Position numbers and translations under genes: made by a program | The notes under the pieces: model-generated | What the model was told of the DNA's origin: nothing | What the model saw: only the letters and a program-made list of their open reading frames with translations | The model's database searches: none | Source: Sphingopyxis sp. MSC1_008 | Lineage (GTDB): Bacteria > Pseudomonadota > Alphaproteobacteria > Sphingomonadales > Sphingomonadaceae | Direction of reading: 5' to 3' | Assembly: GCF_023197165.1 (NCBI RefSeq) | Contig: NZ_JALPRD010000008.1 | Location: 1-64,000, forward strand | DNA: 64,000 nt | In this document: piece by piece, positions 2,085 through 56,390 of the stretch | How positions within the stretch are numbered: the first letter of the stretch is position 1 | Layout of the letters: the number at the start of each line of letters is the position of its first letter

Positions 2085-3149
2085 TCACTCGGCGGCGATG
2101 CCGGCTTGTTTGAACATGTCTTCGCCGTCGCTTTCGGCGTCGTTGACCGGGCTCGTGTCTTCGCTGTTCTTCGCCTTCTTGCGGCTGTCGAAGCTGGTCC
2201 ACACATTGTTCCATTCGCCGCGCGTCGCGCCCTTGCTGTATTCGGTCGCGCGCGTTTCGAAGAAGTTGGCGTGCTCGACGCCGTTGAGCAGCGGGGCGAG
2301 CCAGGGGAGCGGGTGCTCGTCGATCATGTAGATCGGCTGGAACCCAAGCTGCCCGAGGCGCCAGTCGGCGATGTAGCGGATGTAGCGCTTGATCTCCTTC
2401 GGCGTCATGCCGGGGACGGGGCCCTGTTCGAACGCGAGGTCGATGAACGCATCCTCGAGCCGCACCGTTTTCTGGCAGGTGTCGATGATGTCTTCCTTCA
2501 CCGCCTTGGTCAGGCAGCCGCGTTCCTTGGTGAAGGTGTGGAACAGCTTGATGATGCCTTCGCAGTGGAGGCTTTCGTCGCGGATCGACCAGCTGACGAT
2601 CTGGCCCATGCCCTTCATCTTGTTGAAGCGCGGGAAGTTCATCAGCATCGCGAAGCTGGCGAAGAGCTGCAAGCCTTCGGTAAAGCCGCCGAACATCGCG
2701 AGCGTGCGCGCGATATCCTCGTCATTGTCGACGCCGAACTGCTGCATATAATCGTGCTTGGCGCGCATCTCGTCATATTCGAGGAACATGCCATATTCGC
2801 TTTCGGGCATGCCGATCGTGTCGAGCAGGTGCGAATAAGCCGCGATGTGCACGGTTTCCATGTTGCTGAACGCGGTCAGCATCATCTTGATTTCGGTCGG
2901 CTTGAACACGCGGCCATATTTGTCGTGGTAGCAATCCTGCACCTCGATATCGGCCTGCGTGAAGAAGCGGAAAATCTGCGTGAGCAGGTTGCGCTCGTGG
3001 TCCGAAATCTTTTGCGCCCAGTCGCGGCAATCCTCGCCCAGCGGCACTTCCTCGGGAACCCAGTGAATCTGCTGCTGGCGTTTCCAGAAATCGAACGCCC
3101 AAGGATATTCGAAGGGCTTGTAGGTGTTGCGGGCTTCTAACAACGGCAT
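2085..3149 (-). CDS. nrdB: Ribonucleotide reductase class I, beta (radical) subunit
   Basis: 354 residues from the start chosen here. It generates and stores the tyrosyl radical used by NrdA to reduce ribonucleotides to deoxyribonucleotides in the cytoplasm. Visible family signatures are an acidic ligand segment (D67/E69), the E98-x2-H101-x3-Y105 motif giving two metal ligands and the probable radical tyrosine, and a second E-x2-H pair in RDESLHCEG. A longer frame runs 35 codons upstream, but those residues are translated palindromic repeat, so MPLLEARN at 3149 is preferred. It is the second gene of the nrdA-nrdB operon, 117 nt after nrdA with a repeat element between. Confidence 0.96.
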   Translation of the reverse strand: MPLLEARNTYKPFEYPWAFDFWKRQQQIHWVPEEVPLGEDCRDWAQKISDHERNLLTQIFRFFTQADIEVQDCYHDKYGRVFKPTEIKMMLTAFSNMETVHIAAYSHLLDTIGMPESEYGMFLEYDEMRAKHDYMQQFGVDNDEDIARTLAMFGGFTEGLQLFASFAMLMNFPRFNKMKGMGQIVSWSIRDESLHCEGIIKLFHTFTKERGCLTKAVKEDIIDTCQKTVRLEDAFIDLAFEQGPVPGMTPKEIKRYIRYIADWRLGQLGFQPIYMIDEHPLPWLAPLLNGVEHANFFETRATEYSKGATRGEWNNVWTSFDSRKKAKNSEDTSPVNDAESDGEDMFKQAGIAAE

Positions 3150-3178: not shown

Positions 3179-3255
3179 GTGTCCCGGCGAAAGCCGGGAT
3201 CCAGTCTGGCTTGGCGTCAGGTCGCGCTGGGCCCCGGCTTTCGCCGGGGTTCACG
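3179..3255. repeat. Palindromic repeat, cccggcgaaag family, between nrdA and nrdB
   Basis: The left arm TCCCGGCGAAAGCCGGGA and the right arm CCCCGGCTTTCGCCGGGG are each self-complementary and also pair with each other. A second copy is at 37419. It sits inside the nrdA-nrdB transcript and could modulate the subunit ratio by partial termination or mRNA protection, but that is inference. Confidence 0.85.
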
Positions 3256-45839: not shown

Positions 45840-46852
45840 TGGCGAAGGCCAAATCCTGGATCGAGCCGCATGCAAGCGGCATCTATGTGAAACCCGCCGA
45901 CCTGTGGATCGACCCGTCGCGCCCCGTCGAGCGTGCCGCGGTGACGCACGGTCATGCCGATCATGCGCGGAGCGGCCATGGATCGGTGTTCGCGACCCCC
46001 GAGACGCTGGCGATCATGGCGCTGCGTTATGGCGTCGATGTCGAGGCGAGCCATAATCAGGCGTATGAATATGGCGACGGGTTCGAGCGCGGCGGGGTGC
46101 GGTTCAGCTTCCACCCGGCGGGGCATGTGCTCGGCAGCGCGCAGATCTTGATGGAATATGCGGGCGAGCGGATCGTCGTCACGGGCGACTACAAGCGGCG
46201 CGCCGATCCGACCTGCGCGCCGTTCGAGGTCGTACCGTGCGACATCTTCGTCACGGAGGCGACCTTTGGCCTGCCGGTGTTTCGTCATCCGCCGACCGCC
46301 GACGAGATCGCCAAGCTGATCGGCGCGGTGCGCGCCGAGCCCGACCGCTCGGTGCTCGTCGGCGCCTATGCGCTCGGCAAGGCGCAGCGCGTGATCGCCG
46401 AATTGCGCGGTGCGGGGTGGGATGCGCCGATCTATATCCACGGCGCGCTCGAGAAGATGTGCCAGCTTTATGCGGTGCACGGTGTCGATCTTGGCGAACT
46501 GCGGTTGGTTTCGGAGACTGACAAGGCCGAGATGGCGGGGCAAATCGTCCTTGCGCCGCCCTCGGCGCTCAACGACCGCTGGTCGCGGCGGCTGCCCGAT
46601 CCGGTGACCGCGATGGCGTCGGGCTGGATGCGCGTGCGCCAGCGCGCGCGGCAGCGGATGGTCGAGCTGCCGCTGGTGATTTCGGATCATGCCGATTGGG
46701 ACGAACTGACAACGACGATTTCGGAAGTGAACCCCAAGGAGAGCTGGATCACGCACGGCAGCGAAGACGGGCTGCTCCGCTGGTGCGAACTGCATCAGCG
46801 CAAAGCGCGCGCGCTGCACCTCGTCGGCCGCGATCTGGAGGAAGAGGCGTGA
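45839..46852 (+). CDS. Ligase-associated DNA exonuclease (MBL/beta-CASP)
   Basis: 337 residues, ATG overlapping the udgX stop as TGATG. Metallo-beta-lactamase motif THGHADHAR (H-x-H-x-D-H) near residues 37-45 and TGDYKRR; the HPAGHVLGSAQI segment is typical. The family is annotated as ligase-associated DNA exonuclease or mRNA 3'-end processing factor and is adjacent to an ATP ligase in many genomes. It would trim DNA ends before sealing. It overlaps the ligase by 4 nt. The usual third partner, a ligase-associated DEXH helicase, is not encoded here. Confidence 0.9.
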   Translation: MAKAKSWIEPHASGIYVKPADLWIDPSRPVERAAVTHGHADHARSGHGSVFATPETLAIMALRYGVDVEASHNQAYEYGDGFERGGVRFSFHPAGHVLGSAQILMEYAGERIVVTGDYKRRADPTCAPFEVVPCDIFVTEATFGLPVFRHPPTADEIAKLIGAVRAEPDRSVLVGAYALGKAQRVIAELRGAGWDAPIYIHGALEKMCQLYAVHGVDLGELRLVSETDKAEMAGQIVLAPPSALNDRWSRRLPDPVTAMASGWMRVRQRARQRMVELPLVISDHADWDELTTTISEVNPKESWITHGSEDGLLRWCELHQRKARALHLVGRDLEEEA

Positions 46853-48501
46853 AGCGCTTCGCGGCCCTGATCGACCGGCTGATCTACACGCGCTCGCGCA
46901 ACTCCAAGCTCGCGCTGATCGTCGATTATTTGCGGCACACGCCCGATCCCGACCGCGGCTGGGCAATCGCGGCGCTGACCGAGAGCCTCGATTTCCCGGC
47001 GGTAAAGGCGGGAACGGTGCGGACCTTGCTCGCGACGCGGGTTGATGAGGAGTTGTTCCGGCTGTCGCGGCACTTCGTCGGTGATACGGCGGAGACGGCG
47101 GCATTGCTGTGGCCGGAGCAAGAAAAGCCCCTCCCCTTCAGGGGAGGGGTTGGGGGTGGGGTTTCGAAGGCTGGCGCTACGCCGCTAGACCCCACCCCAA
47201 CCCCTCCCCTGAAGGGGAGGGGCTTAACAGTTAGCGAAGCTGTTGATGCGCTCTCTTCCGCGACCCGCAGCGATGCGCCCGCTATCGTTGCGTCGCTGCT
47301 CGACCGCCTCGACGCCGATGGACGCTATGCGCTGCTCAAGCTCGCGCTTGGCGGGATGCGTGTCGGGGTGTCGGCGCGGCTTGCGAAACAGGCCTTCGCG
47401 CAAGCGTTCGATGTGCCCGTCGACGATGTCGAGGAGCTATGGCACGCGATCCCGCCGCCTTATGCGCCGTTGTTTGCATGGGGCGAGGGCAGGGCGGAGC
47501 GACCCGACCTCGCCGACGTCGCCTTCTTCCGCCCCTTCATGCTCGCGCATCCGTTGGAGGAGGAGAGCGTCGACCTCGCCGACTATGCCGCCGAGTGGAA
47601 ATGGGACGGCATTCGCGTCCAGATCGTCCATGGCGGCGGCGAGACGCGGATCTACAGCCGCGGGGGCGAGGAGATCAGTGGGGCGTTTCCCGAACTGGTC
47701 GCGGCGTTCGATCAGGATGCGGTGATCGACGGCGAACTGCTCGTGCGCGGCGAGGTCCAGGGCGGTGAGGCGGCGAGCTTCAATGCGCTGCAGCAGCGGC
47801 TCGGGCGAAAGGTCGTCTCGAAGAAGATGCTCGCCGACTACCCTGCCTTCGTGCGCGTGTACGATCTGCTCGCGGTCGATGGCAACGATCTGCGCGGGTT
47901 GCCCTGGACCGAGCGGCGACGGCAGCTGGAAGCCTTTGCGCCGCGCCTCGCCGGCAGCCATTTCGACCTCTCGCAAGTGATCGATGCCAAGAATTTCGAC
48001 GACCTCGCAGAACGCCGCGCCGGTGCGCGCGACGCCGCGATCGAAGGGGTGATGCTCAAGCGCCGCGACGCGCCTTATGTGGCGGGGCGGCGTGCCGGGC
48101 TCTGGTATAAATGGAAGCGCGACCCGCTCACCGCCGATTGCGTGATGATGTACGCCCAAAGGGGCAATGGACGCCGCGCCAGCTTCTATTCGGACTATAC
48201 CTTCGGATGCTGGTCCGAGGCGGGCGAATTGCTACCCGTCGGCAAAGCCTATTCGGGCTTCACCGACGAGGAATTGAAATGGCTCGACAAGTTCGTGCGC
48301 GACAACACGCTGAACCGTTTCGGGCCGGTGCGCGAGGTCGAAAAATCGCTCGTACTCGAAGTCGCCTTCGATTCGATACACAGCAGCAAGCGCCACAAGT
48401 CGGGGCTCGCGATGCGCTTCCCGCGCATTTCGCGTATCCGCCGCGACAAGCCCGCCGAAGAGGCCGACCGGATCGCGGCGCTTCAGGCAATGGTGACCTG
48501 A
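46849..48501 (+). CDS. ATP-dependent DNA ligase (bacterial accessory type)
   Basis: 550 residues from GTG 46849. Joins DNA nicks through a covalent AMP-lysine; the nucleophile K251 is in EWKWDGIRVQI, and motifs III-V continue (VRVYDLLAVDGNDLR, GVMLKRRDAPY, LWYKWKRDP). It keeps the N-terminal DNA-binding domain found in the longer bacterial ligases. An in-frame insertion of repetitive sequence (47125-47225, residues ~93-126) adds Pro/Gly-rich residues between the N-terminal helices. The C-terminal OB domain is intact. Last gene of the SOS operon. Confidence 0.92.
   Translation: MKRFAALIDRLIYTRSRNSKLALIVDYLRHTPDPDRGWAIAALTESLDFPAVKAGTVRTLLATRVDEELFRLSRHFVGDTAETAALLWPEQEKPLPFRGGVGGGVSKAGATPLDPTPTPPLKGRGLTVSEAVDALSSATRSDAPAIVASLLDRLDADGRYALLKLALGGMRVGVSARLAKQAFAQAFDVPVDDVEELWHAIPPPYAPLFAWGEGRAERPDLADVAFFRPFMLAHPLEEESVDLADYAAEWKWDGIRVQIVHGGGETRIYSRGGEEISGAFPELVAAFDQDAVIDGELLVRGEVQGGEAASFNALQQRLGRKVVSKKMLADYPAFVRVYDLLAVDGNDLRGLPWTERRRQLEAFAPRLAGSHFDLSQVIDAKNFDDLAERRAGARDAAIEGVMLKRRDAPYVAGRRAGLWYKWKRDPLTADCVMMYAQRGNGRRASFYSDYTFGCWSEAGELLPVGKAYSGFTDEELKWLDKFVRDNTLNRFGPVREVEKSLVLEVAFDSIHSSKRHKSGLAMRFPRISRIRRDKPAEEADRIAALQAMVT
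47125..47225. repeat. Palindromic repeat inserted in-frame inside the ligase gene
   Basis: Left arm (47125-47162) begins AAGCCCCTCCCC, right arm (47189-47225) is its near-perfect reverse complement, and each arm contains its own CCCCTCCCCTTCAGGGGAGG palindrome. The reading frame stays open through it (KPLPFRGG to PLKGRGL). The same core occurs outside genes at 48503 and 56261. This is a protein-coding copy of a mobile-like repeat. Confidence 0.9.
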
Positions 48502-48502
48502 A

Positions 48503-48632
48503 GAGCCCCTCCCCTTCAGGGGAGGGGTTGGGGTGGGGGCTGTCGGCGTAGCGCAAGGTCGATGGCCCCCACCCGCTGCGACTAACGAACAAGTTCGTAA
48601 GTCTCGCTGCCCTCCCCTGAAGGGGAGGGCGT
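48503..48632. repeat. Compound palindromic repeat, variable-stem family, copy B
   Basis: Outer palindrome CCCCTCCCCTTCAGGGGAGG leads into a GGGTGGGGGC arm, a GGCCCCCACCC arm, then GCTGCGACTA, the stem ACGAAC (48585-48590) with GTTCGT (48593-48598), AAGTCTCGCTGCC and a final CCTCCCCTGAAGGGGAGGG. Compared with copies A and C the flanks are nearly constant but the inner stem is different and still pairs. Directly follows the ligase stop, so it can act as a terminator. Confidence 0.88.
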
Positions 48633-55126: not shown

Positions 55127-55205
55127 CGTCGCCCCCGCGAAGGCGGGGGCCGCTATCGGCCTTTTGCTACATCTCCAGCGGCCTCCCGCCTTCGCGGGGG
55201 CGACG
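55127..55205. repeat. Palindromic repeat, gcccccgcgaaggc family
   Basis: CGTCGCCCCCGCGAAGGCGG is inverted against CCGCCTTCGCGGGGGCGACG, with a spacer containing CTATCGGCC. Both arms are themselves self-complementary. Located between convergent fghA and qor, so it may terminate both. Confidence 0.85.
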
Positions 55206-56260: not shown

Positions 56261-56390
56261 AAGCCCCCTCCCTTTCAGGGGAGGGGTTGGGGTGGGGGCC
56301 ATCAACCTCGCGCGAGGCCGATGGCCCCCACCCGCTGCTACTAAGCCAGCAAGCTGGCAAGTCTCGCTGCCCTCCCCTGAAGGAGAAGGC
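56261..56390. repeat. Compound palindromic repeat, variable-stem family, copy C
   Basis: Same order as copy B: CCCCTCCCTTTCAGGGGAGG palindrome, GGGTGGGGGC arm, GGCCCCCACCC arm, GCTGCTACTA, stem GCCAGC (56345-56350) with GCTGGC (56353-56358), AAGTCTCGCTGCC, and a CCTCCCCTGAAGGAGAAGG end. The inner stem sequence is unrelated to those of A and B yet still pairs. It lies between qor and the helicase gene. Confidence 0.88.

Follow-up and report, generated by a model that had tools for sequence, protein, structure and literature searches.

The window, a 64,000-nucleotide stretch of the genome of Sphingopyxis sp. MSC1_008, carries three minus-strand copies of a foldback repeat. The copy at positions 48,503-48,632 is a full element of about 130 bp, whose CTT..TAG sense is the minus strand and which is antisense to both neighbouring genes; the stop codon of an ATP-dependent DNA ligase frame (46,696-48,501, plus strand) lies 4 nt ahead of its P1. 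The order in a full copy is the P1 palindrome, TT, the P3 stem-loop with its G/C stem, the P4 module with its covarying hairpin, and the P5 palindrome, which is the reverse complement of P1. In the 48.5-kb copy, P1 (CCCCTCCCC-TTCA-GGGGAGGGG, 48,506-48,527) is able to pair with P5 (CCCTCCCC-TGAA-GGGGAGGG, 48,610-48,629), P3 (GGGGTGGGGG.. / ..CCCCCACCC) spans 48,530-48,574, and P4, with the inner hairpin ACGAAC-AA-GTTCGT and paired feet, spans 48,575-48,611 on the minus strand (61.1 bits). The predicted fold of this copy is a three-way junction made of a closing stem of about 20 bp (P1 with P5), the G/C-rich P3 and P4, with z scores against its own shuffles of -9.4 as RNA and -10 as DNA; the helix extends beneath the variable P4 stem, where GACT pairs with AGTC. 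The second full element (56,261-56,390, minus strand) has the same sense as the DEAD-box helicase gene upstream of it, and its P4 (56,334-56,371, minus strand; 53.1 bits) has one foot base changed (TACTA). The third copy (2,011-2,075) is truncated, without P1 and most of P3; its P4 (2,017-2,054, minus strand; 61.7 bits) is sense to the upstream gene for the ribonucleotide reductase small chain (2,085-3,146, minus strand, the start being our choice), whose stop codon is 11 nt from P5 (2,052-2,073). As the original prediction stated, the three copies share the flanks GCTGC-x-ACTA (at 2,017, 48,575 and 56,334) and AAGTCTCGCTGCC (ending at 2,054, 48,611 and 56,371), and enclose the perfectly paired stems GCGGGC/GCCCGC, ACGAAC/GTTCGT and GCCAGC/GCTGGC, respectively. 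Relatives of the element include some without P4 and others whose left arm, or in some cases each arm, bears a similar hairpin. One P1-P3-P5 element without P4 (47,128-47,222) lies within the ligase reading frame, ahead of the ligase domains, and leaves that frame open throughout. When the loops of P1 and P5 are compared in 116 elements, 38 pairs are reverse complements, 3 are identical, 30 are of another kind and 45 are unscorable.

The family is abundant in this genome and its relatives. The exact two-flank pattern occurs 21 times in the 4.75-Mb genome and the reversed pattern, used as a control, not at all; a covariance model, whose matches here number at least 22 (15 of them already among the 21), adds 7 copies without exact flanks, giving a total of at least 28. 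The sister species Sphingopyxis sp. PET50 holds 90 copies and another genome of the genus 44 (slightly looser pattern). Within the family, the exact-pattern element is present in 40 of 298 genomes and 21 of 96 genera, and among the 80 matches listed of at least 117 stretches, all belong to Sphingomonadales or alphaproteobacterial bins. At an E value of 1e-4 the covariance model matches at least 4 of 289 genomes of the class, three of them from this family (the present genome included) and the fourth from another. In L382 (genome G555, from another family of the class), a similar module reads GGCTA-GGCAGC-AA-GCTGCC-AAGCC, with the foot pair changed on both sides. Ten plasmid records match the element, one of them over at least 80% of the query, and the phages searched gave no match. 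Nothing in the window exceeds an Rfam gathering score, and Rfam matches to the element itself fall below the cut-offs. The literature, searched by repeat letters and by topic, yielded no description of this repeat family, in line with the original prediction. Hairpin types recur within and between genomes, ACGAAC-AA-GTTCGT alone accounting for 32 of the 90 PET50 copies, and the suggestion that a unique hairpin is built at each insertion is therefore unsupported.

Pairing of the P4 stem is maintained almost throughout. Among the 28 stems of this genome, 24 pair perfectly and 4 have a single mismatch, so that additional copies did not bring the unpaired stems that would have spoken against a structure: by reading, 19 of the 21 exact-pattern stems are fully paired and two (L009, L017) have one mismatch each, and the 7 copies added by the covariance model divide into 5 and 2 in the same way. 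The 173 distinct elements, scored over their first six positions, divide into 116 with full pairing, 39 with one departure and 18 with more. In 56 full elements with 14-nt hairpins, picked from 154 by completeness and hairpin length, 99.6% of cells are paired, and both sides have changed in 76 cells, compared with 22.2 on shuffling; none of the 500 shuffles reaches 76. A set of 53 modules, selected by hand out of 128 listed, has 94.0% of cells paired, with corresponding figures of 98 and 30.7. The covariation score exceeds all 500 shuffles in both of these sets and in the reductase-slot set described below, with the reservation that related rows inflate such scores. Shuffles equalled the pair counts and the pair-type counts in 288 and 116 of 500 cases for the 56 elements, 0 and 34 for the 53 modules, and 19 and 274 for the reductase slot. 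Compensatory change in the element thus exceeds shuffles and slid controls, an excess that is not clear for the number of pair types. With this qualification, the P4 structure and selection on it, as originally proposed, are well supported.

The departures from pairing are not symmetrical between strands. When 103 distinct hairpins are oriented as CTT..TAG, their mismatches are G.U 32, G.A 31, G.G 8, A.C 6, C.C 4, U.U 3, C.U 2 and A.A 1; G.U thus outnumbers A.C by 32 to 6 (binomial p 2e-5) and G.A plus G.G outnumber C.U plus C.C by 39 to 6, although the hairpins are kin and binomial tests overstate the difference. On the complementary strand, the common mismatches would read A.C, C.U and C.C. 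This skew points, with fairly good support, to the CTT..TAG strand as the probable target of selection for folding. The predicted stability of this strand relative to its complement is higher in 61, lower in 8 and equal in 34 hairpins as RNA, and 87, 12 and 4 as DNA. The first five pairs in PET50 contain 12 G.U mismatches in the CTT sense, no A.C, and 3 A.A on the plus strand, and the foot pair in 60 genomes of the genus is A-T 56 times (27 of them from two genomes), G.U in the same sense 6 times and never A.C. The 48 antisense copies show the G.U bias too (8 G.U against 2 A.C); transcription in cis therefore does not explain it. Some observations run the other way: the four mismatches of this genome are two G.U (L009, L017) and two A.C (L416, L418), the stem GGCAGC/GTTGCC is an additional A.C case, and 16 divergent copies show the opposite of the purine bias (G.A plus G.G 2, C.C plus C.U 4). 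Mutation acting unequally on the two strands could produce part of the same mismatch skew. The loop types in the CTT sense are CTTG, GNA and GNNA, which resemble stable DNA loops; we do not take this as proof of DNA over RNA.

Orthologous sites allow the changes to be followed in place. At the ribonucleotide reductase slot we compared 46 genomes whose slot resembles that of the window and added 13 more, 11 of which were readable (L410 and L411 were unreadable, and G341 was left out). The first 46 comprise 32 with an alignable P4, 1 with an unaligned P4, 2 with P4 and another repeat in its loop, 9 with another hairpin and 2 with none, and by a simple pattern P5 is kept in 41. The P4 loop of L327 and L338 contains CCCTTCGACAAGCTCAGGAC, apparently from another repeat. 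The 11 added genomes comprise L405 with P5 and another hairpin, L401 with a palindrome without P4, L408 with another foldback, and 8 with no element. A P4-type hairpin in the sense orientation is thus present in 35 of the 57 genomes read, and another hairpin in 10 more. Among the 32 aligned hairpins (25 distinct, with some rows shifted in register at the foot), both sides have changed in 37 cells, compared with 13.1 on shuffling, and none of 500 shuffles reaches 37. On the gene tree of the 46, in which 10 of 43 branches are well supported, 13 labels (18 of the 46 assignments being made by hand) require at least 29 changes, compared with a shuffled mean of 31.9 and values as low in 12 of 200 shuffles, and so hairpin type is nearly unlinked to the reductase gene tree. 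L316, L318 and L317 have three different hairpins, one an unrelated core, on near-identical left flanks. Since the flanks and P5 are constant and the orientation is the same, the differences at this slot look like exchange or change in place; re-insertion is a possible source. Two other hairpins, CCCGGCGAAAGCCGGG and CCCCGGCTTTCGCCGGGG, lie between the two ribonucleotide reductase genes of the window (3,183-3,250).

The other two slots are occupied more variably. At the 48.5-kb slot, readable in 53 of 60 genomes of the genus, 20 lack a foldback (among them L247, with its imperfect palindrome), 17 and 3 carry REPs that are CGTC-type by their letters, 5 carry P4 elements (one as in the window, two inverted, two two-armed and decayed), 3 carry elements without P4, 3 solitary palindromes and 2 another foldback. 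The type of foldback found here in those last two genomes is also seen in the window as an inverted pair of CCCGCCTTCGCGGG at 55,134-55,198. The 56-kb slot, read by eye in 49 of the 60 genomes, holds a P4-type element in 6, a CGTC-type repeat in 16 and a solitary palindrome in 22, of which one, one and two, respectively, are decayed; 5 cases are ambiguous. Unrelated foldback repeats thus occupy the same slots in other species, and hairpin differences at orthologous sites can therefore arise by re-insertion.

As to how the copies move, a search of this genome for the suggested RAYT, the REP-type transposase (Y1_Tnp), found none. Across the 298 family genomes, Y1_Tnp is present in 8 of the 40 with the exact-pattern element and in 31 of the 258 others, and with so weak an association and its absence here we rejected a RAYT as the mover. 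No convincing target-site duplication was seen in 85 elements over 392 combinations of length and offset (best case 6 against 1.43 expected, at length 3). The PET50 copies show no preference for one replication strand (52 of 90, with the origin placed at base 1 by assumption). The two close inverted copies of L018 might have bounded a composite transposon, but this too was rejected, as the genes they enclose look by eye like housekeeping genes. GTAG REPs, which are associated with RAYT, need a perfect stem and one particular strand in S. maltophilia (PMC8266576, PMC3733652). They are similar in having variable-stem hairpins in many intergenic copies; however, their GTAG foot is unpaired, whereas the feet here are GACTA/AAGTC, paired and without GTAG, P4 is embedded in a larger junction, and this genome has no RAYT. 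The CGTC REPs of Alphaproteobacteria are intergenic, lie near gene ends, occur in sphingomonads and are without a dedicated transposase (PMC3733652). They share slots with the P4 family, but the P4 family, judged from our alignments against the description in PMC3733652, lacks their CGTC tag, their 8-9 bp stem starting with AT and their CCA tail. The REPs GTAG-15 of A. variabilis and CGTC-1 of H. neapolitanus are set within longer palindromes (PMC3733652) and so resemble a hairpin unit inside a longer foldback, but their letters and architecture are different, and in the P4 family the hairpin is highly variable. The small size and terminal inverted repeats (the P1/P5 pair over about 20 bp) recall MITEs; unlike these, the family shows no target duplication, and no transposase was found here, Y1_Tnp being the only one sought. 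In integron attC sites the structure of one folded strand is kept and not its sequence, and the P4 hairpin is similar in keeping a single-strand fold rather than letters. We read the family as a REP/BIME-like foldback family that fits neither GTAG nor CGTC REPs and is nearest in behaviour to both.

Our tentative reading, to which we give a probability of roughly 0.45, is of a non-autonomous REP/BIME-like foldback family of Sphingomonadaceae, in which the folded CTT strand is recognised in trans and P4 alleles are exchanged by recombination. The folded strand, as ssDNA or RNA, would be recognised by a factor supplied in trans as copies spread, the cue being the shape together with the CTT/TAG feet; P4 alleles may pass between copies through recombination across the shared flanks, and some resident copies may serve as 3'-end elements of genes. 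Directly observed are the paired changes that keep P4 a helix, the mismatch skew towards the CTT strand, and the presence or absence of copies at orthologous sites near stop codons. An unlikely variant is a transposase-less, single-strand-folding repeat whose hairpin is a swappable cassette replaced in place, even from an unrelated foldback family, with selection only for the folded CTT strand. It is possible, if doubtful, that the element acts instead as RNA, with P5, P4 and P3 folding in the 3' untranslated region of the mRNA from the gene upstream to control its end, stability or termination, so that pairing is selected in RNA and the letters are free. Copies do lie near stop codons: 63 of 123 genes that face P5 have their stop codon no more than about 10 nt away, as do 42 of 102 that face P1. 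Among 184 copies (orthologues thinned, genes called by a home-made caller), 67 are sense, 46 antisense, 56 convergent and 15 divergent, a sense excess over antisense with p 0.06. The sense hairpins of the reductase slot, the occupation of the same spots by foldbacks of other families and the tolerance of G.U would also suit RNA. Against this, the strand bias extends to antisense copies, the 48.5-kb copy is itself antisense to both neighbours, and many genomes do without, the 48.5-kb slot having no foldback in 20 of 53 and the reductase slot no element in 8 of 57. T-runs (at least 5 T of 8) are rare, following P1 in 11 of 111 cases and P5 in 9 of 210, though the controls gave 1 and 1; an intrinsic terminator was therefore rejected as the general identity of the element, and a minority of copies could be terminators.

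Pairing could also be restored by mutation alone, if template switching at quasi-palindromes copies one arm into the other. We consider this improbable: it would give paired changes in one step, including G-C to C-G flips (L033/L132), but the process predicts neither the strand bias nor the tandem G.A/A.G pairs found in 13 of 95 hairpins. Gene conversion that redistributes a small number of old hairpin types among the copies, with little present-day selection, agrees with the recurrence of types and with the differing hairpins of L316, L318 and L317, yet it leaves the origin of 103 distinct hairpins unexplained, and the single-mismatch intermediates are strand-biased over the whole set; we regard it as quite improbable. 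Selection on dyad symmetry itself, for a double-stranded protein site or a cruciform, would account for full pairing over six positions in 116 of 173 elements, but a duplex site treats both strands alike and the mismatch bias therefore counts against it, which makes it highly improbable. In this family, paired changes at fixed sites can be compared as a natural series over dozens of species, and the strand bias tells which strand folds. This opens to experiment the question of how REP-like repeats spread when no transposase is known for them, and whether a strong hairpin of any kind downstream is all that some genes need. Copies of the element can themselves host other repeats: in L039, L055, L073, L113, L134 and L379, P1 or P5 has nested within it another kind of foldback, whose arms are CAGGT.. 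and GTCC.GGAC-like.
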